In this document: positions 146 through 13,786 of the stretch, piece after piece | Layout of the letters: every line of letters starts with the position of its first letter | Numbering within the stretch: position 1 is the first letter of the stretch | NCBI RefSeq assembly: GCF_011045195.1 | Contig: NZ_CP049199.1 | Location: forward strand, 1,922,001-1,986,000 | DNA from: Caulobacter soli | GTDB lineage: Bacteria; Pseudomonadota; Alphaproteobacteria; Caulobacterales; Caulobacteraceae | Length of the DNA stretch: 64,000 nt | Reading direction: 5' to 3' | Made by a program: the position numbers and the translations under genes | The notes under the pieces: generated by a model | What the model saw: only the letters and a program-made list of their open reading frames with translations | The model's database searches: none | Told to the model about the DNA's origin: nothing

Positions 146-173
146 GTATTACGATTGCGCCAACTCGTAATAT
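146..173. promoter_or_regulatory. NikR-geometry operator upstream of the ABC importer
   Basis: The site reads GTATTA-N16-TAATAT (28 bp), and the core TATTACGA/TCGTAATA at 147-154 and 165-172 is a perfect inverted repeat. Classical NikR operators have 6-bp half-sites separated by 16 bp (GTATGA-N16-TCATAC), so the geometry is identical. A second copy lies at 11153-11180, directly before the NikR-like gene. It sits 41 bp before the importer ATG, where a repressor could block initiation. The binding assignment is inferred from geometry and the neighbouring regulator. Confidence 0.7.
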
Positions 174-214: not shown

Positions 215-1327
215 ATGAGTGCCTTGTTCACCCGCAAGCGTTTTCTGGCGGCCATGGCCGCGTCCTGCCTGGTCCTGGCCTCGTGCGGACCCAAGCCCGC
301 CGACAAGCCCGCGACGGCCCCGGCCGCGCCCGCCGCTGCCAAGACCAGCTACAAGATCGGCTGGACCATCTATGCCGGCTGGATGCCGTGGGCTTACGCC
401 CAGCAGTCGGGCATCGTGAAGAAGTGGGCCGACAAGTACGGCGTGCAGATCGAGCTGGTGCAGATCAACGATTACGTCGAATCCCTGAACCAGTACTCGG
501 CCGGCAAGCTGGACGGCGTCACCGCCACCAACATGGACGCCCTGACCGTGCCCGCCGCTGCGGGCAAGGACACCACCGTCGTCATGATCGGCGACTATTC
601 CAACGGCAATGACGGGGTGATCCTAAAGAACGGGACGACCCTGGCCCAGATCAAGGACCGTCCGGTCAATCTGGTCGAGCTGTCGGTCTCGCACTATCTG
701 CTGGCCCGCGCCCTGGAGACGGCCGGCCTGAAGATGGCCGACGTCAAGACGGTCAACACCTCAGACGCCGACATCGTGGCCGCCTACAGCGCCGCCGACA
801 CCAAGGCCCTGGTGACCTGGAACCCGCAGCTGTCAGAAGTGAAGAAGATGCCCGGCGCGACCGAGGTGTTCGACAGCTCCAAGATCCCCGGCGAGATCCT
901 GGACGGCCTGATGGTCAGCACCGACGAGCTGAAGGCCAATCCCAACCTGGGCAAGGCCCTGGTCGGCATCTGGTACGAGGTCACGGCCCTGACCGTGGCC
1001 CAGACCCCCGAAGGCAAGGCCGCCCGCGAGGCGATGGCCAAGCTGTCGGGTTCGGACCTGGCCAGCTTCGAGAGTCAGCTGAAGACCACCTACCTCTACG
1101 CCGACCCCAAGGCGGCGCTCGCCGCGACGGTCAGTCCGGACCTGGTCACCGCCAACGACCGGGTGCGCAAGTTCAGCTTCAGCATGGGCCTGTTCGGCCA
1201 GGGCGCGAAGTCGGTGGACGACATCGGCATCAGCTTCCCCAATGGCAAGACGCTGGGCGATCCGGCCAATGTGAAGCTGCGCTTCGATCCGACCTATGTG
1301 CAGCAGGCGGTCGACGGCAAGCTGTAG
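215..1327 (+). CDS. ABC transporter substrate-binding lipoprotein, urea-carboxylase-associated
   Basis: This is a 370-residue periplasmic binding lipoprotein for a small nitrogen compound, probably urea or guanidine. The N-terminus has basic residues, a hydrophobic stretch and a lipobox (LASC, lipidated Cys24), then an Ala/Pro linker before the binding domain (KIGWTIYAGWMPWAY). It resembles the SsuA/TauA-like proteins found beside urea carboxylase genes. The ATG at 215 is chosen because GAGGGA precedes it; a longer frame from 155 would run through the 146-173 operator and bury the signal peptide. It is followed by its permease and ATPase. Substrate identity is inferred from the locus. Confidence 0.85.
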   Translation: MSALFTRKRFLAAMAASCLVLASCGPKPADKPATAPAAPAAAKTSYKIGWTIYAGWMPWAYAQQSGIVKKWADKYGVQIELVQINDYVESLNQYSAGKLDGVTATNMDALTVPAAAGKDTTVVMIGDYSNGNDGVILKNGTTLAQIKDRPVNLVELSVSHYLLARALETAGLKMADVKTVNTSDADIVAAYSAADTKALVTWNPQLSEVKKMPGATEVFDSSKIPGEILDGLMVSTDELKANPNLGKALVGIWYEVTALTVAQTPEGKAAREAMAKLSGSDLASFESQLKTTYLYADPKAALAATVSPDLVTANDRVRKFSFSMGLFGQGAKSVDDIGISFPNGKTLGDPANVKLRFDPTYVQQAVDGKL

Positions 1328-1355: not shown

Positions 1356-1447
1356 GGTCCTCGTCCTTCGACAAGCTCAGGATGAGGACCATTGCAGGCG
1401 CCGGCATTCGAAAACCTCATCCTGAGCTTGTCGAAGGACGAGGTTTT
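1356..1447. repeat. Pair of inverted 29-bp intergenic repeats
   Basis: Two copies of a 29-bp core (CCTCGTCCTTCGACAAGCTC and onward) lie in opposite orientation at 1359-1387 and 1415-1443 with perfect complementarity. Each copy also has short terminal inverted repeats (GGTCCTC/GAGGACC and AAAACCTC/GAGGTTTT). The sequence resembles the dispersed CTTCGACAAGCTCAGGATGAGG element common in alphaproteobacterial intergenic regions. In RNA the pair would form a 29-bp stem with a 27-nt loop between the binding-protein and permease genes. Confidence 0.9.
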
Positions 1448-1489
1448 CGGCTCCAGAATTTAGACGTCGAGAGGACCCAGACCCGCTTC

Positions 1490-2308
1490 ATGCGCCGCTT
1501 GTTGAACGTCAGACCCCGGGGCGGTCTCAATGTCCTGCTGGGCCTCGTGCCGCTGCTGGCGGTGGCGCTGGTCTATCTGATGGCCTCTCAGGCCCGCCAC
1601 GCCGAGAACCCGCGCGACAAGCTTCTGCCGACCCCGACCGCCATGGTCGAGGCGGTGCAGATGATGGCCAAGGTCGATCCCCTGACCGGCGACGCGCCGC
1701 TGGTGGTCGACACCGCGGCCAGCCTCAAGCGGATCGGTGTGGCCCTGGTGATCTCGACCGGCGTCTCGCTGGTCCTGGGCCTGAGCCTGGGCTTGCTGCC
1801 CCTGCTGAGGGCCAAGTTCGGGCCGCTGGTGGCGGCCGTCGCGGTGGTGCCGCCGATCGCGGTGCTGCCGATCCTGTTCATCGTCTTCGGCCTGGGCGAG
1901 ACCGCCAAGATCGCCCTGATCGTCATCGGCATCACGCCGGTCATGGTCCGCGACCTGGCCGCCCAGGTCGCCGCCATCCCCGAGGAGCAGTTGGTCAAGG
2001 CCCAGACCTTGGGCGCCAGCACCTGGCAGTTGGCCCTGCGCGTGGCGCTGCCGCAGGCCATGCCCCGGCTGATCGATAGCCTGCGCCTGTCGCTGTGCCC
2101 GGCCTGGGTCTATCTGATCTCGGCCGAGGCCATCGCCGCGGACGTTGGCCTGGGCTACCGGATCTTCCTGGTCCGCCGCTATCTCTCCATGGACATCATC
2201 CTGCCCTACGTCGTCTGGATCTCGATCCTGGCCGTGCTGATGGACTGGGCGCTGCGCACGATCAGCCGCCGCGCCTATCCTTGGGCCCATTCCGTGCGGG
2301 GGCGCTGA
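1490..2308 (+). CDS. ABC transporter permease, urea/guanidine locus
   Basis: This 272-residue inner-membrane permease belongs to the SsuC/TauC-like BPD family. It has several hydrophobic segments and an EAA-type loop (LGASTWQLALRVALPQAMP) that contacts the ATPase. An upstream extension to 1382 exists in frame, but it would translate the right repeat copy, so the ATG at 1490 is preferred. A GAGG lies about 15 nt before it, which is a weak ribosome site. It ends one base before the ATPase start, so the two are translationally coupled. Together with the proteins at 215 and 2310 it forms a complete importer. Confidence 0.85.
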   Translation: MRRLLNVRPRGGLNVLLGLVPLLAVALVYLMASQARHAENPRDKLLPTPTAMVEAVQMMAKVDPLTGDAPLVVDTAASLKRIGVALVISTGVSLVLGLSLGLLPLLRAKFGPLVAAVAVVPPIAVLPILFIVFGLGETAKIALIVIGITPVMVRDLAAQVAAIPEEQLVKAQTLGASTWQLALRVALPQAMPRLIDSLRLSLCPAWVYLISAEAIAADVGLGYRIFLVRRYLSMDIILPYVVWISILAVLMDWALRTISRRAYPWAHSVRGR

Positions 2309-2309
2309 G

Positions 2310-3071
2310 ATGGACCTGCTGACCTTCCGCAACGTCTGGGTGGAGTACGGCGACAAGGTCGTGCTCGAGAACGTCGACCTGTCGATCCAGCAGGGCAGCT
2401 TCGTCTCGATCGTCGGGCCGTCCGGCGCGGGCAAGAGCACCTTCCTGCGCCTGGTGCTGGGCCAGGAGGCGCCGAGCAAGGGCGCGATCGACCTGGACGG
2501 CAAGAAGCTGCGCGCCGAGCCGGGGCCCGACCGAGGCGTGGTGTTCCAGAAGTATTCGGTGTTCCCGCACCTCAGCGCCCGCGACAACGTGGTGTTCGGC
2601 CTGGACTGCGAAGGCTCGATGTTCCGCGCCCGGCTGTCGGGCGCGAAGCGCCGCGCGGCGGAAGCGCAGGCCGACGCCATGCTGGCCGCCGTCGGGCTAG
2701 GCGACAGCGGCGACGTCTATCCGGCCCAGATGTCGGGCGGCATGCAGCAGCGTCTGGCGATCGCCCAGGCCCTGATCAAGAAGCCGCGCATCCTGCTCTT
2801 GGACGAGCCGTTCGGCGCGTTGGATCCCGGCGTGCGCCTGGACATGCACGAGCTGATCACCGGTCTTTGGCGCGAGCATGGCCTGACCATCATGATGGTC
2901 ACCCACGACATCAAGGAAGCCTTCAAGCTGGGCACCCGCGTCCTGGCCTTCGACAAGCGCCGCCGCGATCCGCAGGCCCCGCATCGCTATGGCTCGACGG
3001 CGGTCTACGATTTCCCGCTGGACAAGCCGGGGGCGGTGGGACCGGAGGCGCTGGCGGGGTTGGGCAAGTAG
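2310..3071 (+). CDS. ABC transporter ATP-binding protein, urea/guanidine locus
   Basis: This 253-residue nucleotide-binding subunit energises the importer encoded just upstream. It has Walker A GPSGAGKST, a signature MSGGMQQR, Walker B ILLLDEPFGALD and the switch histidine in VTHD. It fits the nitrate/sulfonate/taurine-type ATPase family. The start follows the permease stop by one base. It is the last gene of the three-gene importer operon; the next genes converge from the other strand 9 bp away. Confidence 0.9.
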   Translation: MDLLTFRNVWVEYGDKVVLENVDLSIQQGSFVSIVGPSGAGKSTFLRLVLGQEAPSKGAIDLDGKKLRAEPGPDRGVVFQKYSVFPHLSARDNVVFGLDCEGSMFRARLSGAKRRAAEAQADAMLAAVGLGDSGDVYPAQMSGGMQQRLAIAQALIKKPRILLLDEPFGALDPGVRLDMHELITGLWREHGLTIMMVTHDIKEAFKLGTRVLAFDKRRRDPQAPHRYGSTAVYDFPLDKPGAVGPEALAGLGK

Positions 3072-3787: not shown

Positions 3788-5575
3788 CTACCCGGCCAGC
3801 GAGGCGATATAGGCGCGCCAGCCGCCCAGCGCGGTGATATCGGTCGCGCCGTTCAGGGCGCGTGGTTCGGCGACGAAACCCTTGACCGAGGTTCCGTCCT
3901 CCAGGGTCACCGTGCCGATGGCCAGAGGAGCGGGGACCTCGGCGGTGAAGCTGCCGAAGGCCTCGAAGTCCAGCTCGTAGACCTCGACCAGGATCGAGCT
4001 TCCGCCGTCTCCCACGTGGATCAGGGCGGGCTTGGGCGGGGTGGTCTCGGCCATGGCGTAGAGCTTGTAGGCCGGGGCGGTCCTGGTCGCGCTGACAAGC
4101 CGGGCCTCGCGCGAGGTCAGCTGCCAGTGCAGCGGCATGCCGGCCAGGTGAGCGCCCACCACGGCCAGTTTCACGCCCGGCTTGCGCGGGGTCAGGTCGA
4201 GGGGCGGCGTGTCGGCCATGGGGAAGGTCTCCAGGTAGCGCTCGGCCAGGGCCAGCAGCGCGCGGTCGGCGAAGGCCGGTCCGATCAGGGTGACGCCGAA
4301 GCCGGTGCCGTTTTCACGGAAGCCGGCGGGAACGGCCACGGCGCTCATGTCGAGCAGGTTCACGAAGTTGGTGTAGAGGCCGAAGTTGGCGTTGAGCGCG
4401 ATCGGCTCGGCCAGCATTTCCTTCAGGCGATAGATGGTCGGGGCCGTGGGCAGCAGCATCACGTCCACCGCGTCCCAGATCGCCTCGGCGGACCGCTTGT
4501 AGGCTTCAAGGGCGTAGAGGCCCTTGAAGGTCTCGACGGCGGTGACGGCGAGGCCCCCCTGGACGATGTTGCGCACCGTGGGGTGGATGACGCCAGGCGT
4601 GTCGCGCAGCAGATGCTCGACGGCGGCCGTGCGTTCGGCCACCCAGGGGCCGCTGTAGAGCAGCTTGGCGCAGTCCAGCAGCGGGGCGATGTCGATCTCG
4701 ACGGGCGCTCCGCCGGCGGTGGTCAGGCGGTCGATGGCGGCGGCGTAGAGGGCGGCCGATTGCTCGTCGCCCATGAACAGGCGCTGGTCGGGCTTGGGGA
4801 CGCCGAAGGTGAAGGCGCTTTCAGGGGCGGCGGGCGGCGAGGCCGGCGCGCGACGCGAATAGTCGTCTTCAGCGTCGAACGCCGTCAGCACCTCGTCGAC
4901 CCGCGCCGCGCCGGCCAGGTCGGCGGCGAACACGCTGATGCAGTCCAGCGACCGGCAGGCGGGGACCAGGCCGCGCGTGCTCCATCGTCCCTTGGACGGC
5001 TTCAGGCCGATCAGGTGGTTGAACGCGGCGGGCACCCGGCCCGAACCGGCGGTGTCGGTGCCCAGCGAGAACGCCACCAGCCCCGCCGCGACGGCCACGG
5101 CCGATCCGGAACTGGAGCCGCCGCTGACATAGGCGTGGTCGAACACGCACAGGGGCGCGCCATAAGGACTGCGGACTCCGACCAGACCGGTGGCGAACTG
5201 GTCGAGGTTGGTCTTGCCGATCAGCACCGCCCCAGCCTCGACTAGCCGCTCGACCACGGTGGCCGAGCGCTCCGGCGTGTAGGCGAAGGCGGGGCAGGCG
5301 GCGCTGGTGGGCCAGCCGGCGATGTCGATATTGTCCTTCACCGCGAACGGCGCGCCGGCCAGGGGCAGGGTCTCACCGGCCGCGATCCGGGCGTCAACGG
5401 CGCGAGCCTGAGCCAGCACGGCCTCGGCGGGCAGGCGCAGAATCCACGCCTGGGGCTGGATCAGGTCATAGGCGGCGACCGCGTCGAGCGCCGCCTGGGC
5501 GACCTCGACGGCGCTGGCGCCGCCGTTCACGGCCTCGGCGATGGTCGTGACCGAAAGGCGTTCAAAGTCGCTCAT
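3788..5575 (-). CDS. atzF: Allophanate hydrolase
   Basis: A 595-residue amidase-signature enzyme that splits allophanate into ammonia and CO2, the last step after urea (or carboxyguanidine-derived) carboxylation. The Ser-cisSer-Lys triad can be placed at Lys80 (PFAVKDN), Ser154 (GGSSSGSA) and Ser178 (TDTAGSGR); the 24-residue serine spacing matches the family. Residues from about 470 form the extra C-terminal domain typical of AtzF. Length is normal. Its ATG overlaps the carboxylase stop by 4 bp, so the two enzymes are made together. A hairpin follows the stop. Confidence 0.93.
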   Translation of the reverse strand: MSDFERLSVTTIAEAVNGGASAVEVAQAALDAVAAYDLIQPQAWILRLPAEAVLAQARAVDARIAAGETLPLAGAPFAVKDNIDIAGWPTSAACPAFAYTPERSATVVERLVEAGAVLIGKTNLDQFATGLVGVRSPYGAPLCVFDHAYVSGGSSSGSAVAVAAGLVAFSLGTDTAGSGRVPAAFNHLIGLKPSKGRWSTRGLVPACRSLDCISVFAADLAGAARVDEVLTAFDAEDDYSRRAPASPPAAPESAFTFGVPKPDQRLFMGDEQSAALYAAAIDRLTTAGGAPVEIDIAPLLDCAKLLYSGPWVAERTAAVEHLLRDTPGVIHPTVRNIVQGGLAVTAVETFKGLYALEAYKRSAEAIWDAVDVMLLPTAPTIYRLKEMLAEPIALNANFGLYTNFVNLLDMSAVAVPAGFRENGTGFGVTLIGPAFADRALLALAERYLETFPMADTPPLDLTPRKPGVKLAVVGAHLAGMPLHWQLTSREARLVSATRTAPAYKLYAMAETTPPKPALIHVGDGGSSILVEVYELDFEAFGSFTAEVPAPLAIGTVTLEDGTSVKGFVAEPRALNGATDITALGGWRAYIASLAG

Positions 5576-8500
5576 GCGGCGGCCTCCAGATCAGGCGCGA
5601 TGGCCACGATCGGCGCGCCGGCGGCGATGGCCTGGGCCGGCTGGGCGTAGACGGCCGTGACAATCCCGGCCGTCGGGCTGTTGACGTCGCACTCGGCCTT
5701 CATGGCCTCGATCACGGCGATCACCGCGCCGGCCTCGACCCGCTGGCCGGGCTCGACCAGCACCTTCCAGACATTGCCGCCCAGCGGGGCTTCGACCAGA
5801 TCGCTGCCGTCGGGAACGGTGATGGCCACCGCGTCGCCGTCGTCGTCGGTCACGCTGGACAGGGCCTCGACCCGGGCGAACTCGCCCTTGGCCTCCCAGT
5901 CGGCCCGCTCGGTGTCGAAGGCGGCCTGGCGCGTGGCCTGGAAAGCCTCAATGCTTTCAGCGTTGTCGGCCAGCATCTTGCGGTAGTCGGAGAGGCGGAA
6001 GGTCTCGTCCTCGATGCGGATCTGACGGCGGCCCAGCGGGAAGTCGCGCCGCCACTCGACCAACTCCTCGGCGCTGACCGGGAAGAAGCGGATCTGGTCG
6101 AAGAACCGCAGCAGCCAGGGCTTGCCGTCGACGAAGGCGTCGGTCTGGCGCCAGGTGTTCCACACCTGGATGGTGCGCCCGAACAGCTGATAGCCGCCCG
6201 GACCCTCCATGCCGTAGATGCACATATAGGCGCCGCCGATGCCGACCACGTTGGGCGGGGTCCAGGTGCGGGCGGGATTGTACTTGGTGGTCACCAGGCG
6301 GTGACGCGGATCGACCGGGGTGGCGACCGGCGCGCCCAGATAGACGTCGCCCAGGCCCATCACCAGATAGCGGGCGTCGAAGACGATCTTCTGCACCTCA
6401 TCGATGCTGGCCAAGCCGTTGACCCGGCGGATGAATTCGATGTTGTCCGGGCACCAGGGCGCGTCGTCGCGCACGGCCTGCATGTACTTGTCGATGGTCT
6501 GGTAGATCGCGGGATCCTTCCAGCTCAGCGGCAGGTGGACCACCCGCGACGGAATCTCGAAGTCGTCCAGTCCGCCCAGCCGTTCCTCGGCCGTGGTCAG
6601 GGCGGCCAGCAGGTCGGCCTGGGTCAGGCGGCGGCTGTCATAGTGCACCTGCAGCGAGCGAATGCCGGGGGTCAGGTCGATGACGCCCGGCAGGGCCAGG
6701 CCCTGCAGGTCCAAGTATAGGGCGTGGATGCGCAGCCGCAGCTCCAGGTCCAGCACGATGGGGCCGTATTCGACGAGCAGGTGCTGGTCGCCCTGACGGC
6801 GATAGGTGACGTGCGGGCGGTGGCCGTCGGCGGGGAGTTCGGCCAGGACCGGGCCGTCGAGCGCTTCGGTCGTCGGCGCGGCGGCGCGCGGGGCGGATGG
6901 GGCGCGCAGCGTCGCGAGCAGGGCTTCCTGCTCGCCGAGGGCCAGGGCGGCCGCCGCGTCGTCGACGACCTCGAACCGCACCGTGTCGCCCGGCGCCAGC
7001 TGTCCGGCCTTCCACAGGTCGGCCTGGATGATCACGAACGGACACACGAACCCGCCCAGCGAAGGTCCGTCCGGTCCCAGGATGATCGGCATGTCGCCGG
7101 TGAAGTCGACGGCCCCGATGGCGTAGGCGTTGTCGTGGATGTTGGAGGGGTGCAGCCCGGCCTCGCCGCCGTCGCGCCGCGCCCATTCTGGCTTGGGCCC
7201 GACCAGCCGCACCCCGGTGCGGTTGGAGTTGTAGTGCGCCTTCCAGTCTGTGCCGCTGATCATCGCCACATCGGCCGGGGTGAAGAAATCAGGGGCGCCG
7301 TGCGGGCCGGGCAGGACGCGGATGGTCCAGGTTTTGGTGGTGGCGGGGCGGAGATCGAGGGGCAGCGGCGGGGACACGCGTATGCGTGTGTCCCCATGCG
7401 TGGCCAGTCTCAGCACGTCGCCGGCCGTCAGGTTACGTCCGGCATGGCCGCCGAAGCCGCCCAGGGTGAAGGTCGAGCGGCTGCCCAGATAGACCGGCAC
7501 GTCCAGCCCGCCCTGGAACAGCAGATAGCCGCGAAGGCCCGCGCCGATGACGCGGCCGATCTTCAGCGTCTGGCCGGCGCCGACCGCGATCGGGGCGTAG
7601 GCCTCGACCGGGACGCCGTCGAGCTTGGCGTCGAAGGCCGCGCCGGTCAGGCAGACGACGGCGGGGCGGTTGAACTTGAGGGTCGGGCCGAGGGCGGTGA
7701 TCTCCAGCCCCGCCGCGTCCTCGTCATTGCCCAGCAGGCGGTTGCCCAGCCGGAAGGCGAAGGCGTCCATCGGGCCGGACGGGGGCACGCCGACGTCCCA
7801 ATAGCCCTGGCGGCCGGGCCAGTCCTGCACCGTGGTCGCTGGGCCGCCGCTGAGCACCTGGATGGTGTCGGGGTTCCAAGCGACGCCCTCCAGCGCCCGG
7901 GTCGAGACCTCGCCGGTGACGAAGGCCTCGGAGCGGACGACGGTGCGTAGCCAGTCGAGATTGGTCTCGATCCCAGCCAGGCGCGTATCGTCCAGCGCTG
8001 ACTGCAAGGCCGCGACGGCGGCGGGGCGGTCTTCAGCCGTGACGATCAGCTTGGCCAGCAGCGGGTCGTAGAAGGCGCTGACCTCGGTCCCGTCCACTAC
8101 CCAGCCATCGGCGCGGACGCCGGCAGGGAACGAAACCTGGGTGAGCACGCCGGAGCTGGGGCGGTAGTCCTGGGCCGGGTCCTCGGCATAGAGCCGCACC
8201 TGGATCGACGCGCCTTTCGGCTCGGGCGGCGCCACGTCGAGGAAGGCGAAGTCGCCGGCCGCGCCGCGCACCATCCATTCCACCAGGTCCACGCCCGTCA
8301 CCTGCTCGGTGACGCCGTGCTCGACCTGCAGACGGGTGTTGACCTCCAGGAAGAAGAAGTCGTCGCGCTCGGCGTCGTAGAGGAACTCCACCGTGCCGGC
8401 CGAGCGGTACTCAGCCGCCGAGGCCAGGCGGACGGCGGCGTCCAGCAGGGCCGCGCGGGTGGCGGCGGGCAGGCCGGGGGCGGGGGTTTCCTCGACGACC

Positions 8501-9207
8501 TTCTGGTTGCGCCGCTGGAGCGAGCAGTCGCGTTCGCCCAGGGCCACGACCTTGCCGGCGCCGTCGCCGAACACCTGGACCTCGACGTGGCGGGCCTTGC
8601 GCACATAGCGCTCGAGGAAAACGCCGCCGTCGCTGAAATTGCCGGTCGCCAGGCGCTGGACGGCGGCGAAGGCCTCGCTGACCGCCTCGGCCGTCTCGCA
8701 GACCCGCATGCCGATGCCGCCGCCGCCGGCCGTGGCCTTCAGGATCACTGGGAAGCCGATGCGCTGCGCGGCCTCCAGCGCGGCCGCCGGATCGACCAGC
8801 AGGTCGGTGCCGGGCGCCAGCGGCACGCCGTGAGCCTGGGCAAGATCGCGGGCGGTGTGCTTGAGGCCGAAGGCGCGGATGTTGTCGGCGGTCGGGCCGA
8901 CGAAGGCGATCCCCGCCGCGTCACAAGCTTCGGCGAAGCCCGCGTTTTCGCTGAGGAAACCGTAGCCCGGATGAATGGCCTGGGCGCCGGTCGCCTTGGC
9001 CGCCGCCAGGATCAGATCGCCGCGCAGATAGCTGTCGGCCGCCGGGGCCGGTCCGATCCGAACCGCCTCGTCGGCCAGGCTGACGTGCAGCGAGCCGGCG
9101 TCGGCGTCGCTGAATACCGCCACCGACTTCACGCCCATGGCCTTGAGCGTGCGGATGATCCGGCAGGCGATGGCGCCGCGGTTGGCGATCAGGACCTTGT
9201 CAAACAT
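5572..9207 (-). CDS. uca: Urea carboxylase-type biotin enzyme, possibly guanidine carboxylase
   Basis: A 1211-residue single-chain biotin carboxylase. An N-terminal biotin carboxylase module (MFDKVLIANRGAIACR, ATP loop KATAGGGGIGM) is followed by KipA/KipI-like carboxyltransferase domains and a C-terminal biotinyl domain with EAMKAE, modified Lys1170. It carboxylates urea to allophanate, or guanidine to carboxyguanidine, in the cytoplasm. Asp701 in AVDFTGDMP aligns by length with the residue that is Asn1330 in the yeast K. lactis enzyme; as I recall, Asp there marks guanidine-specific members. The adjacent DUF1989 pair supports guanidine. Substrate remains inferred. Confidence 0.9.
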   Translation of the reverse strand: MFDKVLIANRGAIACRIIRTLKAMGVKSVAVFSDADAGSLHVSLADEAVRIGPAPAADSYLRGDLILAAAKATGAQAIHPGYGFLSENAGFAEACDAAGIAFVGPTADNIRAFGLKHTARDLAQAHGVPLAPGTDLLVDPAAALEAAQRIGFPVILKATAGGGGIGMRVCETAEAVSEAFAAVQRLATGNFSDGGVFLERYVRKARHVEVQVFGDGAGKVVALGERDCSLQRRNQKVVEETPAPGLPAATRAALLDAAVRLASAAEYRSAGTVEFLYDAERDDFFFLEVNTRLQVEHGVTEQVTGVDLVEWMVRGAAGDFAFLDVAPPEPKGASIQVRLYAEDPAQDYRPSSGVLTQVSFPAGVRADGWVVDGTEVSAFYDPLLAKLIVTAEDRPAAVAALQSALDDTRLAGIETNLDWLRTVVRSEAFVTGEVSTRALEGVAWNPDTIQVLSGGPATTVQDWPGRQGYWDVGVPPSGPMDAFAFRLGNRLLGNDEDAAGLEITALGPTLKFNRPAVVCLTGAAFDAKLDGVPVEAYAPIAVGAGQTLKIGRVIGAGLRGYLLFQGGLDVPVYLGSRSTFTLGGFGGHAGRNLTAGDVLRLATHGDTRIRVSPPLPLDLRPATTKTWTIRVLPGPHGAPDFFTPADVAMISGTDWKAHYNSNRTGVRLVGPKPEWARRDGGEAGLHPSNIHDNAYAIGAVDFTGDMPIILGPDGPSLGGFVCPFVIIQADLWKAGQLAPGDTVRFEVVDDAAAALALGEQEALLATLRAPSAPRAAAPTTEALDGPVLAELPADGHRPHVTYRRQGDQHLLVEYGPIVLDLELRLRIHALYLDLQGLALPGVIDLTPGIRSLQVHYDSRRLTQADLLAALTTAEERLGGLDDFEIPSRVVHLPLSWKDPAIYQTIDKYMQAVRDDAPWCPDNIEFIRRVNGLASIDEVQKIVFDARYLVMGLGDVYLGAPVATPVDPRHRLVTTKYNPARTWTPPNVVGIGGAYMCIYGMEGPGGYQLFGRTIQVWNTWRQTDAFVDGKPWLLRFFDQIRFFPVSAEELVEWRRDFPLGRRQIRIEDETFRLSDYRKMLADNAESIEAFQATRQAAFDTERADWEAKGEFARVEALSSVTDDDGDAVAITVPDGSDLVEAPLGGNVWKVLVEPGQRVEAGAVIAVIEAMKAECDVNSPTAGIVTAVYAQPAQAIAAGAPIVAIAPDLEAAA

Positions 9208-9215
9208 GCGGGAAC

Positions 9216-9842
9216 CTACTCGGCGACGATCATGCGCACGGGCGTCGGGTTGAAGCCGTTGCAGGGGTTGTTGATCTGCGGGCAGTTGGAGACCACCACC
9301 ACCACGTCCATCTCGGCCCGCAGGTCGACATAGAGGCCGGGGGCCGAGATGCCGTCGACGATGCCCAGGGCTCCGTCGGCTTCGACCGGCACGTTCATGA
9401 ACCAGTTGACGTTGCTGACCATGTCGCGCTTGCCACGCCCTTGTTGGGCGTTGGCGACCAGGAAGTTCTCGACGCAGGCGTGCTGGGCCTTGGTGTGGTG
9501 GCCGTAGCGCAGGGTGTTGCTCTCGCAGGAGCAGGCCCCGCCAATGGTGTCGTGATAGGCCACGGCGGTCGCCGTCACCGTCATCATCGGCGCGCCCTCG
9601 TTGGACAGCAGCACCGAGCCCTCGCGCAGGAAGACGTTGCCCTGGGCGGCGATGGTGTCCTGAGCGCTGTAGCGTTCGGCGTCGTCGGCGGCGCTGTAGG
9701 CCAGGAAGTCGACGGCCTGATTGCCTTCCAGGTCGACGATCCGCAGGGTCTGGCCGGCCCTGACCGTGTGCATCCAGGGGGCGCGGGCGGGCACGACCTC
9801 GTCATGGACGACGGTTCCGAGGGGCGGGGCGGAAACGGTCAT
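9216..9842 (-). CDS. Urea carboxylase-associated DUF1989 protein (shorter), candidate carboxyguanidine deiminase subunit
   Basis: A 208-residue DUF1989 protein of the class long annotated urea-amidolyase-associated. Recent work known to me showed that the pair forms a carboxyguanidine deiminase (CgdAB), which turns carboxyguanidine into allophanate. Cys-rich motifs GACSCESN and NCPQINNPCNGFNP are visible and probably bind metal or substrate. The ATG at 9842 is the in-frame start that leaves the upstream DUF1989 gene intact; a longer frame to 10697 is only a shadow of that gene. It lies 5 bp after its partner and 8 bp before the carboxylase. Confidence 0.88.
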   Translation of the reverse strand: MTVSAPPLGTVVHDEVVPARAPWMHTVRAGQTLRIVDLEGNQAVDFLAYSAADDAERYSAQDTIAAQGNVFLREGSVLLSNEGAPMMTVTATAVAYHDTIGGACSCESNTLRYGHHTKAQHACVENFLVANAQQGRGKRDMVSNVNWFMNVPVEADGALGIVDGISAPGLYVDLRAEMDVVVVVSNCPQINNPCNGFNPTPVRMIVAE

Positions 9843-9847
9843 GGCGC

Positions 9848-10672
9848 TCACCGGCGGTAATAGTCTTCGACGTTCAGGAAGGCGCGCAGGCCTTCCGGCG
9901 TCGCGTTGCGGATCGGGTCGGCTTCGGGTGTGACCGGCCCGCGCCAGGCTGTGGCCCGCAGTGGCGTGACGGCATATTCCGCGCGCGGGTCCAGCACGTG
10001 CGGGCAGTTGGCCAGCACCACGATCAGGTCCATCTCGGCGCGCAGCGTGACGAACCGGCCGGGCGGGTAGGGGCCGACATCGATCACCGTCTCGCCGCCC
10101 TGGGCCACGCGCACCTCCTTGAAGAGGTTCAGGCAGGGATGGATGTCCTTGCGGCCCAGGCCGAACTTGGCCACGCCCAGCGAGAAGCGGTCGCGGGCGT
10201 TGGGGTGGGCGCCGTGGTTGAAGCCGTCGCCGTACTTGCGGGCGTTGCTGGCCTGGTTGGACGCGCCGCAGAAGGCGTCGTGGGTTCCGGCGGTGTCCTC
10301 GACCAGGCTGGCCAGCACGCGGCCCATGTCGGACAGCAGCAGGCGGCCCTGGCCCAGATAGCCGTTCCACTGGACCTTCAGGGTGTCGGCGATGTTCAAC
10401 CGCTCGACCGGGCGTTCGGCGTTGAACAGCAGCAGGGAAGGGCTGGCGTCGCCGGCGAGATCCGTCAGACGCAGGCGGGTTCCGCGGGCGATCTGGCGAC
10501 TGGCGTAGCCGCCCGGTGCGAGGGTCTCGTCCCAGACCACGTCGGCGGGGGCGACGCCTTGCGGCAGGTCGACGGCGTCGGTGGCCGGCACGGTCGGCAT
10601 GGCCTGAGCGCGAGTTCCGGCCTGGGCGCGGGCGTGAGCCTGGGCGGCGTAGGGGTTGGCGGTGTCGCTCAT
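9848..10672 (-). CDS. Urea carboxylase-associated DUF1989 protein (longer), candidate carboxyguanidine deiminase subunit
   Basis: A 274-residue partner of the 208-residue DUF1989 protein downstream. A low-complexity Ala/Gln N-terminus of about 45 residues precedes the conserved domain. Landmark motifs are CGASNQASNARKYGDGFNHG and NCPHVLDP. By family knowledge the two subunits act together as carboxyguanidine deiminase, linking the carboxylase to allophanate hydrolase. The ATG at 10672 overlaps the regulator stop by one base (TGATG), so the regulator and enzymes are one transcript. Confidence 0.88.
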   Translation of the reverse strand: MSDTANPYAAQAHARAQAGTRAQAMPTVPATDAVDLPQGVAPADVVWDETLAPGGYASRQIARGTRLRLTDLAGDASPSLLLFNAERPVERLNIADTLKVQWNGYLGQGRLLLSDMGRVLASLVEDTAGTHDAFCGASNQASNARKYGDGFNHGAHPNARDRFSLGVAKFGLGRKDIHPCLNLFKEVRVAQGGETVIDVGPYPPGRFVTLRAEMDLIVVLANCPHVLDPRAEYAVTPLRATAWRGPVTPEADPIRNATPEGLRAFLNVEDYYRR

Positions 10673-11142
10673 CACGCAGCTCCGTCGTTTTCGCCATGGG
10701 CGTGCAGCGGCGGCAGCAGGGCGGTGGTGGTCACCAGCTTGATCTGCTGCACGCCGCGCACCTTGCGCAGGTCGTCGCACAGCTGCTGCAGGCGCTCGAA
10801 CGGGCCCTGGACCAGGAGCACCTCCATGGCCTGGTCGTCTTCCAGGAAGACGTTCTGGGCCGAGATCACCTCTTTCACATAGCTGAGCTGGGTCTGGGCC
10901 AGGGCGTGGCGGACCCGGCCGCTTTCGGCGCGATAGATCAGGGTGATGGTGCCGGCGAGGACGGCTTCAGGCCGTTCGGCGCTGTGCTCGGCCAGTTCGT
11001 GGCGGATCAGCTCGGCGATCATCTGCGAGCGGCTGGGCAGGCCGCGTTCGGCGACCATGACATCCAGCTGCGCCATCAGTTCGGCCGGGAGGCTGATGCT
11101 GAGACGGGCGAGGGTTGAGGAGGACGTGTCCATGGAGGGCAT
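10672..11142 (-). CDS. NikR-family ribbon-helix-helix regulator lacking the nickel ligands
   Basis: A 156-residue regulator with a ribbon-helix-helix DNA-binding domain (RLSISLPAEL) and a NikR/ACT-like C-terminal domain. It aligns to E. coli NikR without gaps at a constant offset of 10. The DNA-contacting strand residues Arg3/Thr5/Thr7 become Arg13/Ser15/Ser17. All four square-planar nickel ligands are lost: His76 to Leu86, His87 to Asn97, His89 to Phe99 and Cys95 to Ala105. It should bind DNA like NikR but sense something else, perhaps urea, guanidine or a downstream product. A matching operator lies 11 bp before its ATG. Confidence 0.85.
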   Translation of the reverse strand: MPSMDTSSSTLARLSISLPAELMAQLDVMVAERGLPSRSQMIAELIRHELAEHSAERPEAVLAGTITLIYRAESGRVRHALAQTQLSYVKEVISAQNVFLEDDQAMEVLLVQGPFERLQQLCDDLRKVRGVQQIKLVTTTALLPPLHAHGENDGAA

Positions 11143-11152
11143 CCGATCGCAA

Positions 11153-11180
11153 ATATTACGAAGGATGCAATGTGTAATAC
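11153..11180. promoter_or_regulatory. NikR-geometry operator upstream of the regulator-carboxylase operon
   Basis: The site reads ATATTA-N16-TAATAC (28 bp); TATTACGA on the left is identical to the site at 146-173, and 18 of 28 bases match overall. It lies 11 bp upstream of the NikR-like ATG, so binding would autoregulate the operon. The shared geometry at both ends of the locus suggests coordinated control of uptake and breakdown. Confidence 0.7.
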
Positions 11181-11330: not shown

Positions 11331-12668
11331 TCAGGCGACGGCGCGGTGTGCCTTCTGGGTGGTGAAGCGGTTGGCCGGCACGTCCAGGCCCAGGCTCCGG
11401 CGGAAGGTTTCGCCTTCGTAGTCCTGGCGGAAGATGCCTCGCTTCTGCAGCAGCGGCACGACCTCTTCGACCAGCAACTGGAACTGGCCGGGCAGGGATT
11501 GGCCGATGACGAAGCCGTCGGAGGCGCGGCTGTCCAGCCACAGTTCGAACTTGTCGGCGATCTGCTCGGGCGTGCCGACCAGGTCGCCGCGCGGGGTGGC
11601 GAAGCGCAGGGCCACTTGGCGCAGGGTCAGGTTCTCTTCCTCGACGGCCTTGGCGATCTTCAGGGTCGCCGACTGCGAGCTGTTGATCCCGCGGCTGAAC
11701 ACGTCGGGGAACCGGGCGTCGAGGTCATAGCCGGTGAAGTCGTGGTCGTTGAAGCCGCGTCCCAGCATGGCCAGGGCCGACTCGATCGACACCAGCTCGG
11801 CGCGCTCCTGCCAGCGGGCTTCGGCCTCGGCTTCGGTCGAGCCGATGATCGGCGCGGCGGCGGGCAGGATGAACAGGTCGTCCGGATCGCGGCCGAAGCC
11901 GGCGGCGCGGGCCTTGACGTCGGCGTAGTAGGCCTGGGCCTCCTCGATGCCGCCATGGCCGACGAAGATCGCGTCGGCGCGCTTGGCCGCCAGGTTGCGG
12001 CCGTCCTCCGAGGCCCCGGCCTGGAAGATCACCGGCTGGCCCTGGCGCGAGCGGGCGATGTTGAGCGGCCCCTTCACCGACAGGAATTCGCCCTTGTGGC
12101 CCAGGGCGTTCAGCTTGTCGGGATCGAAGAACACGCCGCTGGCCTTGTCGTGGACCAGGGCGTCGTCTTCCCAGCTGTCCCAGAGGCCCTGGACGACATC
12201 GAGATATTCCGCCGCCAGGCGATAGCGGGTGTCGTGCGCCAGGTGTTCGCCCTTGCCGAAGTTCTCGGCCGAGCCTTCCAGCCACGAGGTCACCACGTTC
12301 CAGCCGGCGCGGCCGCCGCTGATGTGGTCCAGCGAGGCGAACTGACGGGCGACGTTGAAGGGTTCGGAATAAGTCACGCTGAGCGTGGCCACCAGGCCGA
12401 TGTGCTCGGTCACCGCCGCCAGGGCCGACAGGATGGTGATCGGCTCGAAGCGGTTCAGATAGTGCGGGCTGGACTTCTCGTTGATCGACAGGCTGTCGGC
12501 GATGAACAGGAAGTCGAACTTGCCTTGCTCGGCCAGCTCGGCTGAGCGGCGATAGTACTTGAAGTCGGTGCTGGCGCCGGGTTGGGCGTCCGGGTGACGC
12601 CAGTCGGTCCAGGTCCGACCCGCGCCTTCGATCATATGGCCGAGCTTCAACTGCCTGCGCTTCGCCAT
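11331..12668 (-). CDS. NtaA/SnaA/DszA-family FMN-dependent monooxygenase
   Basis: A 445-residue luciferase-like flavin monooxygenase of the NtaA/SnaA/SoxA/DszA group. These use FMNH2 from a separate reductase and O2 to oxidise nitrilotriacetate, dibenzothiophene sulfone, dimethylsulfone and similar compounds. The family hallmark [17 protein letters not shown] is present, and the length is typical. GGAGG precedes the ATG at 12668. No flavin reductase is seen nearby. The divergent TauD-type gene and other sulfur genes make organosulfur the likely substrate, but nitrogen compounds are possible. Confidence 0.85.
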
Positions 12669-12940: not shown

Positions 12941-13786
12941 ATGAGCGCCACCATCACCGGCATTCGCGAGACGACGGGACTGAAGACGACGCCGCTGAAT
13001 CCCACCATCGGCTCGGAGGTCGAAGGACTGGACTTGCGACAACCGCTGGACCGATCCCAACGCGACGCGCTCAAGGCGCTGCTGCTGGAGCGCAAGGTCC
13101 TGTTCTTCCGCGATCAGGACATCACGCGCGATCAGCAGTTGGCCTTCGCCGCCAACTTCGGCGAGGTCTACGCCCATCCGGTTGGCGGGGTGGAGACCCA
13201 TCGCGCGGTGCAGCCGATCTCGGCCCAGGCGCTGAAGGAATACGACATCCGCGAGAACCACTGGCATACCGACACCAGCTGGCGGATCAATCCGTCGTTC
13301 GGCGCGGTGCTGAAGGCGGTGCACATCCCCGAGGTGGGCGGCGACACCATCTGGGCCGACGGCGGCGCGATCTATCGCGGCCTGCCCGACGACCTGAAGG
13401 CGGCGGTCGAGGACCTCTACGTCATTCATGACTATCAGAGCGCCCTGGAGAAGTCGGGCGAGCGCTATCCGCTGGTGGCGCATCCGGCGATCCGCACCCA
13501 TCCGGAGACCGGCGAGGACATCTTCTGGATCAATTTCAGCCTCAAGCCCCGGTTCGTCGACCGGTCGCCGGAGGAGAGCAGGGCGCTGCTGGCGCGGCTC
13601 TATGACGAGGTCAAGAAGCCGGAATACCACGCTCGCTTCCGCTGGCGGCCCAACTCGGTGGCCCTGTGGGACAACCGCGCGGGCCTGCATTACGCCGTGC
13701 GCGACTATGGCGACTTCCCGCGGGTGATGGAGCGGGTGCTGATCGGCTCCGACGACATCCCTTACCGCGAGCGGCGCAAGGCCTGA
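12941..13786 (+). CDS. TauD/TfdA-family alpha-ketoglutarate-dependent dioxygenase
   Basis: A 281-residue non-haem iron dioxygenase. The HxD iron motif is in NHWHTDTSW, the distal histidine in GLHYAVRDYG, and the 2-oxoglutarate-binding arginine follows in the C-terminal part. The family releases sulfite from taurine and other sulfonates or sulfate from alkylsulfates, or opens aryloxy-acids. It has no signal peptide and acts in the cytoplasm. A GAGGAGAGG ribosome site precedes the ATG. A perfect hairpin follows it, so it is probably expressed mostly on its own. Confidence 0.85.
   Translation: MSATITGIRETTGLKTTPLNPTIGSEVEGLDLRQPLDRSQRDALKALLLERKVLFFRDQDITRDQQLAFAANFGEVYAHPVGGVETHRAVQPISAQALKEYDIRENHWHTDTSWRINPSFGAVLKAVHIPEVGGDTIWADGGAIYRGLPDDLKAAVEDLYVIHDYQSALEKSGERYPLVAHPAIRTHPETGEDIFWINFSLKPRFVDRSPEESRALLARLYDEVKKPEYHARFRWRPNSVALWDNRAGLHYAVRDYGDFPRVMERVLIGSDDIPYRERRKA

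Follow-up and report, generated by a model that had tools for sequence, protein, structure and literature searches.

The first gene of the guanidine carboxylase operon of Caulobacter soli encodes a NikR-like ribbon-helix-helix regulator that has lost all four nickel ligands and that shares, with a clade of relatives, a conserved DNA palindrome placed in front of guanidine pathway genes. With moderate confidence, we regard this protein as a dedicated, metal-independent repressor of guanidine assimilation, built on the NikR fold and induced by guanidinium or a close derivative. Its regulon and its release from nickel are strongly supported by the comparison of sequences, whereas the effector and the sign of regulation are what we infer.

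The regulator and its genomic surroundings

The window, i.e., the whole stretch of 64,000 nucleotides of C. soli DNA that was analysed, harbors the complete guanidine carboxylase (Gca-CgdAB-AtzF) set, namely the carboxylase, two UAAP/Cgd subunits, allophanate hydrolase and an ABC importer (Table 1). The regulator gene comes first in the enzyme operon, followed on the same strand by the genes for UAAP1, UAAP2, the carboxylase and allophanate hydrolase, and the UAAP1 start and the regulator's stop share one base (TGATG). The first-pass annotation had described a NikR scaffold without a metal site at the head of a carboxylase operon, and this arrangement is recurrent: UAAP1 lies directly 3' of the regulator gene in 50 of 58 related loci, and in three of the remaining eight a contig edge follows just past the gene. 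For the importer's binding protein, the ATG at 215 was picked by its signal peptide. A 493-aa open reading frame at 9216-10697 (minus strand) is an over-extended frame, with UAAP2 starting at 9842 and UAAP1 lying in another frame. Just upstream of the operon, on the same strand, there is a gene for an NtaA/DmoA-type flavin monooxygenase (11331-12668, minus strand), with no sign of regulon membership.

Table 1. Coordinates of the regulator, its putative operators and the pathway genes in the window
Feature	Position	Strand	Evidence or remark
NikR-like ribbon-helix-helix regulator without nickel ligands (Leu86, Asn97, Phe99, Ala105)	10672..11142	-	156-aa ORF, domains, alignment, fold
Operator 1, ATATTAC-N14-GTAATAC	11153..11180	.	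Palindrome just upstream of the regulator gene
Operator 2, GTATTAC-N14-GTAATAT	146..173	.	41 bases upstream of the importer's binding-protein ATG
UAAP1 (carboxyguanidine deiminase subunit, CgdA-type)	9848..10672	-	71% identical to an Asticcacaulis protein annotated UAAP1; DUF1989 structure among PDB matches
UAAP2 (CgdB-type, DUF1989)	9216..9842	-	TIGR03424, 341.5 bits (cut-off 284.7)
Biotin-dependent guanidine/urea carboxylase, 1211 aa, Asp701	5572..9207	-	TIGR02712, 1823.4 bits
Allophanate hydrolase (AtzF-type)	3788..5575	-	TIGR02713, 773.7 bits
ABC importer substrate-binding lipoprotein (ABC_peri_uca)	215..1327	+	TIGR03427, 547.4 bits (cut-off 333.9)
ABC importer permease	1382..2308	+	PF00528
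ABC importer ATPase	2310..3071	+	PF00005

UAAP1 and UAAP2 are presumably the proteins now called carboxyguanidine deiminase, CgdA and CgdB, and the title of a paper by Schneider et al. from 2020 is in line with this. The accessible parts of PMC9800807 and PMC12508155 agree with this equivalence. Asp701 of the carboxylase aligns with an Asn of the Kluyveromyces lactis (K. lactis) urea amidolyase, and Asp occupies this column in 59 of 59 loci where the stretch was readable. We take the column to be that of K. lactis Asn1330, the specificity residue. According to the accessible part of PMC12186494, which gives no residue number, the active-site residue is Asp in guanidine carboxylases and Asn in urea carboxylases.

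With regard to the regulator itself, Pfam assigned an RHH_1 domain (37.4 bits) and a NikR_C domain (69.3 bits, cut-off 22). By phmmer, residues 3-132 of Pyrococcus horikoshii (P. horikoshii) NikR aligned gap-free with residues 11-140 of the regulator (E 1.1e-21), and residues 2-123 of Escherichia coli (E. coli) NikR (1q5v) matched residues 12-133. Since the latter two spans are equally long, the gap-free alignment at a constant offset of 10 that the first-pass annotation had read from the letters holds, and with it the correspondence of the DNA-reading ribbon residues 3, 5 and 7 of E. coli NikR to Arg13, Ser15 and Ser17. When the AlphaFold model of the regulator (mean pLDDT 79.5) was used for a fold search, NikR chains made up the first 49 of the best 50 PDB matches and an ACT domain (6lxg) was the fiftieth; the regulatory domains alone superposed on those of NikR at mostly 1.2-1.8 A. 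All five NCBIfam NikR models that matched the protein scored under their cut-offs (best NF003381, 92.9 bits versus 105), including TIGR02793 at 59.4 bits (cut-off 175.45). No other NikR_C protein was found in the C. soli genome. Homologues numbered 1926 at E <= 1e-5 among 2048 candidates, a set in which true NikRs may be included; among the 120 homologues listed, the names, where given, were mostly nickel-responsive regulator.

The true start of the regulator is probably Met4, at 11133, which would place the operator core 20 bases ahead of the ATG. This agrees with the majority of relatives, given a distance from operator to start codon of 17-21 bases in most of 36 non-redundant promoters (range 8-35). 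A relic-gene artefact was ruled out, given that the reading frame is intact and is kept together with the operator in many species.

Nickel ligands in the clade of the regulator

In E. coli NikR, the nickel ligands are His76, His87, His89 and Cys95, according to the accessible part of PMC7055735. At the offset of 10, these positions are occupied in the regulator by Leu86, Asn97, Phe99 and Ala105, just as had been noted from the sequence at the outset, and the His3Cys set of the NikR nickel site is missing.

In order to place this protein among its relatives, NikR_C genes were collected from three genome sets that overlap in part: 385 genomes of the class, of which 17 had a match, 398 of the phylum, of which 48 did, and 321 of the class to which Methylobacillus belongs, searched with a homologue from that organism and matched in 37. 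Plasmid records, 20 of which had a match, were added. Cys95 was lost in all 79 window-type copies. All four ligands were lost in 13 of the 79 (10 LNFA, one VNFA, one YNNT and one SNNI), and one histidine was kept in 58, two in six and three in two. Total loss of the four ligands is therefore not typical of window-type copies, and the loss of Cys95 is their common trait. A phylogenetic tree was computed with the four ligand columns removed from 109 rows, made up of P. horikoshii NikR and the 108 of 192 copies that remained once near-duplicates had been taken out; length was no ground for exclusion, and one copy with a match of 46 positions (L139) gave no row. The window-type rows all fell on one side of a single branch (43 rows, 99/96), with few columns and a bootstrap not fully settled, and P. 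horikoshii NikR adjoined this clade. The ligand letters within the clade include HHHT, RHHT, YHHT, YHNT, YNNT, SNNI, HQQT, QHQV/I, xHFS, xHLS and LNFA, the histidine ligands having been eroded in several lineages. The simplest reading would be co-option first, followed by decay of the unused metal site.

The first-pass annotation had also proposed a comparison of homologues for metal ligands restored at other positions. None turned up: a scan of His and Cys columns found none invariant across the 43 clade rows, and relocation of the ligands elsewhere was rejected for the clade on this basis. The best-kept columns were His97, an old ligand (37 of 43 rows), His53 (36), His147 in the tail (34) and Cys122 (32). 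His147 was invariant in one alignment of 56, yet Ser, Tyr, Gln or Pro stands there in other copies. Conservation of Cys122 is confined to the alpha group, where this residue, Asp103 and Asp123 are invariant in all 32 rows, leaving room for a new metal site in that group. Likewise, HHHT members of the clade (L176, L178) keep three histidines and could thus still bind metal.

Other positions separate the clade from NikRs with the His3Cys set. Glu30 of E. coli NikR is one of two side chains of a second (potassium/low-affinity) site, as described in the accessible part of PMC7055735; the position is Glu in 98% of the His3Cys rows, whereas Gln occupies it in 96% of alpha-group and 81% of deep-group rows. 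Glu91 is found in 100% of alpha and 81% of deep rows, and Gln112 in 100% of both, compared with 14% of His3Cys rows for either residue. Tyr70 and Glu107 are kept in the clade. A tail with three or more histidines occurs in 43 of 60 His3Cys rows but in only one of the 43 clade rows, and a PPLH-type tail in 34 of the 43 clade rows but in none of the 60 His3Cys rows. Furthermore, searches of the C. soli genome for four nickel families, urease alpha, NiFe hydrogenase, HupE/UreJ and NicO, gave no match. On the basis of the ligand states, the single clade recovered with the ligand columns removed, the changes at Glu30 and in the tail, and the lack of matches to these four families, the regulator very probably does not respond to nickel.

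Operator and predicted regulon

The core of the palindrome, TATTAC-N14-GTAATA, occurs exactly twice in the 5.68-Mb C. soli genome, once at the regulator/enzyme operon and once at the importer operon, whereas the reversed pattern does not occur in exact form. A chance palindrome was ruled out, as the window holds three matches at up to three mismatches versus 0.05 expected; the third of these, at 13600 with three mismatches, was taken as noise. With one mismatch allowed, a mononucleotide shuffle of 0.8 Mb gave a single match. A looser genome search with a 14-base pattern and two mismatches has no power, returning five matches for the reversed pattern versus two for the real one. A consensus scan recognised no promoter.

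In the related loci, the core was present within 250 bp upstream of 54 of 60 regulator copies (58 related loci plus the window), 49 times exactly and five times with one mismatch. The six copies without it were five second copies (L033, on the reverse strand, and L046-L049) and L056. Across 36 non-redundant promoters, the half-sites were nearly invariant and the flanks unconserved. The operator also precedes the gene for the importer's binding protein in L043, L045, L055, L046, L048 and L049; among deep-branching loci, it stands ahead of the UAAP1 match in L176 and of a binding-protein match in L125, L177, L178 and L179.

In the second NikR-like copies of Phenylobacterium-type genomes (L033, 10521-10937, minus strand; L046-L049, at 8001-8438), Gly replaces Ser15 of the DNA-reading strand, and none of these copies has a TATTAC operator to itself; all of the five but L047 share a contig stretch with pathway genes. 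Residue 15 may covary with the operator, Thr going with GTATGAC and Ser with GTATTAC, on the basis of four Thr cases only (L124, L128, L140, L142).

Co-occurrence was followed in 119 Caulobacteraceae genomes, 21 of which had an exact core site and 25 a NikR_C gene. Both were present in 20 genomes, the site only in one, the gene only in five and neither in 93 (Fisher p 4e-17, a value that overstates independence, the genomes being related). The reversed pattern gave five matches in these genomes versus 35 real sites, and 33 of the 35 were within 11.5 kb of a NikR_C gene; of the two remote sites, one was in the genome without any NikR_C gene (G1081) and the other, one of two in G1089, was on another contig than the gene. 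The five gene-only genomes comprised two with His3Cys NikRs and a HupE-like gene nearby, one with an LSPT protein, one with an HQHT protein on a short contig, and G1074, whose regulator is of the window's kind and has a one-mismatch operator. The HQHT copy (L197 in G1148, 2487-2915) has lost Cys95 and His87, and its 8.8-kb contig carries no guanidine pathway genes.

Taken together, the two genome sites, both at the pathway, the footprint in 54 of 60 copies with unconserved flanks, the sites before binding-protein genes and the proximity of 33 of 35 sites to a NikR_C gene indicate that the regulator almost certainly controls the enzyme operon and the importer operon, as far as can be read from sequence.

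Gene context and guanidine riboswitches

Gene neighborhoods were counted for 118 copies on longer loci, leaving out the window's own copy (L059) and 3-kb loci; in this count the window-type class was set by ligand letters, not by the tree. None of 34 His3Cys copies lay near a carboxylase/UAAP or type III glutamine synthetase gene, and none of their 34 loci had the operator at up to one mismatch. By comparison, 70 of the 79 window-type copies were near carboxylase/UAAP genes, three near the synthetase only and six near neither (L020, L022, L032 and L034, where contig ends are close to the gene, L047 and L056), and the operator was present at up to one mismatch in 73 of 77 window-type loci, the exceptions being L047, L056, L128 (a GTATGAC-type site) and L180 (two mismatches). 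Five other ligand-poor copies had neither kind of neighbor. As far as sequence comparison can show, the clade departed from nickel control, its other ligands eroding after the loss of Cys95, and it is tied to guanidine carboxylase clusters and to the TATTAC-N14-GTAATA operator.

The three copies with the synthetase and no carboxylase in view were L125, L128 and L180, a creatininase-like gene being present as well in two of the three; these contexts imply that the ancestral effector may not have been guanidine itself. Clusters in which a NikR-like regulator (YHHT/RHHT) accompanies type III glutamine synthetase and a creatininase-like protein, for example in Methylobacillus, were seen in L125 (4471-10156), L128 and L078, with an ABC importer also in L125 and L078.

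No guanidine riboswitch was matched in the window by Rfam at gathering scores, nor in any of 12 window-type alphaproteobacterial loci scanned. Four of 11 deep-branching clusters had one: guanidine-I in L143 (1895-1990), where it precedes the UAAP and carboxylase genes, and guanidine-II ahead of UAAP1 in L078 and ahead of the carboxylase in L178 (32.6) and L179 (34.1), the latter two scores being barely above the cut-off of 32. In L178 an operator adjoins the riboswitch. In L143, the operator (1833-1860) is directly upstream of the guanidine-I riboswitch, so that protein and RNA appear to control this operon jointly.

Among the effectors put forward by the first-pass annotation (urea, guanidine, allophanate or a nitrogen signal), the UAAP/Cgd partners, the Asp in 59 of 59 carboxylases and the riboswitches in four of 11 deep clusters favour guanidine over urea. 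The SMR transporter and 2OG-Fe oxygenase genes of an Acinetobacter cluster, described below, also speak for guanidine. Guanidine or a close relative is accordingly our leading candidate for the signal, with others still in play.

Discussion

In the model that we favour, a tetramer without metal would bind both half-sites through its ribbon-helix-helix dimers, as NikR does, and would block transcription of the enzyme and importer operons. Guanidinium (or methylguanidine or carboxyguanidine), brought in by the ABC importer, would bind the NikR_C domain, perhaps in or close to the former cation site, and release the DNA, so that importer and enzymes would be made when guanidine is present; with its gene heading the repressed operon, the repressor would also limit its own synthesis. 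That the protein acts as a repressor is likely, because the operator mostly ends 17-21 (8-35) bases before the start codon, where bound protein would obstruct initiation, and because a catabolic operon would logically be controlled in this way. As to whether guanidinium or a close guanidino compound is the direct effector, we consider the chances even.

The same regulon and operator could instead serve a signal of general nitrogen status (e.g., glutamine or 2-oxoglutarate) or another ureido or guanidino compound (creatinine, urea, allophanate), with the ACT-like domain as the place of binding. The neighborhood of type III glutamine synthetase and creatininase-like genes around deep-branching copies speaks for this, as does the ACT-like fold of the C-terminal domain, to which 6lxg, fiftieth of the best 50 PDB matches, bears witness; moreover, where an operator stands beside a riboswitch, as in L143 and L178, the RNA may already report guanidine, and the protein might then report nitrogen status or another guanidino compound. 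However, the predicted regulon is limited to the importer and enzymes of the pathway, fewer targets than one would expect of a general nitrogen regulator, and doubled guanidine sensing has a precedent in the two guanidine riboswitches of one Vreelandella boliviensis (V. boliviensis) operon described in the accessible part of PMC12508155. We hold this alternative to be less likely.

Continued metal sensing through a rebuilt site, for example Cys122 with acidic residues, would link guanidine use to metal supply, and it could draw on the invariant Cys122, Asp103 and Asp123 of the 32 alpha-group rows and on the three histidines of HHHT members. The lack of any invariant His or Cys column over the 43 clade rows, the erosion of histidines in several lineages, the loss of Glu30 of the second metal site in most members and a C. 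soli genome without a urease, NiFe-hydrogenase, HupE or NicO match make it improbable. Least probable of all is an effector-blind, constitutive autorepressor, left with no ligand after nickel was lost and holding the operon at a set level; the loss of ligands in itself and the autoregulatory position of the gene would suit such a protein, but its C-terminal domain is conserved and carries the polar residues Glu91 and Gln112, rare in His3Cys rows, suggesting that it has kept a function in binding or allostery.

To our knowledge, guanidine sensing has so far been known only for RNA switches. Returning to the guanidine-induced repressor, a wider reading to which we give slightly less than even chances is that a NikR-derived clade across Alpha- and other Proteobacteria constitutes a protein class of guanidine(-type) sensor, with the nickel site rebuilt for an organic cation, which would do the work of the riboswitches in Caulobacterales and Sphingomonadales; many, perhaps thousands, of the proteins named nickel-responsive regulators may belong to it. 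The locus offers a concrete candidate for a guanidine sensor: the protein and its 28-bp operator are defined, two operons in one genome are the predicted targets, and the old metal site has several natural variants of independent origin. If true, it would show how a metal sensor can turn into a sensor of an organic molecule, and the automatic labels on a large family would be corrected.

A literature search, with subscription journals largely outside its reach, found nothing tying NikR to urea carboxylase, guanidine, riboswitches or allophanate, and no account of such a regulator among work on NikR homologues lacking ligands or on regulators of guanidine carboxylase. In the accessible part of PMC2667541, the mentions of NikR and of the pathway are unrelated to each other; a supplementary NikR tree of that paper marks NikR in organisms not using nickel.

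Comparison with known systems

The closest known relatives are the NikRs of E. coli, P. horikoshii and Helicobacter pylori (H. pylori), which share with the regulator the ribbon-helix-helix and NikR_C fold. The regulator differs from them in lacking the His3Cys site and the His-rich tail, in its changed second metal site and in a half-site that reads GTATTA rather than GTATGA. The E. coli NikR operator is GTATGA-N16-TCATAC, according to the accessible part of PMC7055735; compared with GTATTA-N16-TAATAT here (coding strand), it has the same 6-N16-6 spacing and about one base changed per half-site. In our set, the His3Cys NikR loci L124, L140 and L142 had sites within two mismatches of GTATGAC-N14-GTCATAC beside their own gene, and a further His3Cys copy (L191) had GTATTAC-N13-GTAATAC upstream, with a spacer of 13 versus 14. 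While NikR targets nickel genes, both exact-core sites of the regulator are at guanidine genes.

Other NikR_C proteins without the His3Cys set, with the ligand letters RQPY, LSPA, LSPS and LSPT, have no TATTAC operator at up to one mismatch. RQPY (L080) adjoins a HupE/UreJ gene, and LSPA (L136) and LSPS (L138) adjoin DUF4198 genes; these three stand apart from the window-type clade in the tree, from which LSPT (L193) was left out. All four are possibly sensors of another metal.

A plasmid copy (QHQV) of Acinetobacter sp. NCu2D-2 lies among genes for urea carboxylase, AtzF, an SMR transporter, a 2OG-Fe oxygenase and an ABC importer, a cluster that resembles the methylguanidine operon in the accessible part of PMC12508155. 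The core guanidine operon of V. boliviensis, from the same part of that paper, has the gene set of the window, which has the regulator and no riboswitch. There, the guanidine-I and -II riboswitches control the same set of enzymes and importer, with an RNA aptamer taking the place that a protein and its DNA operator would hold here.
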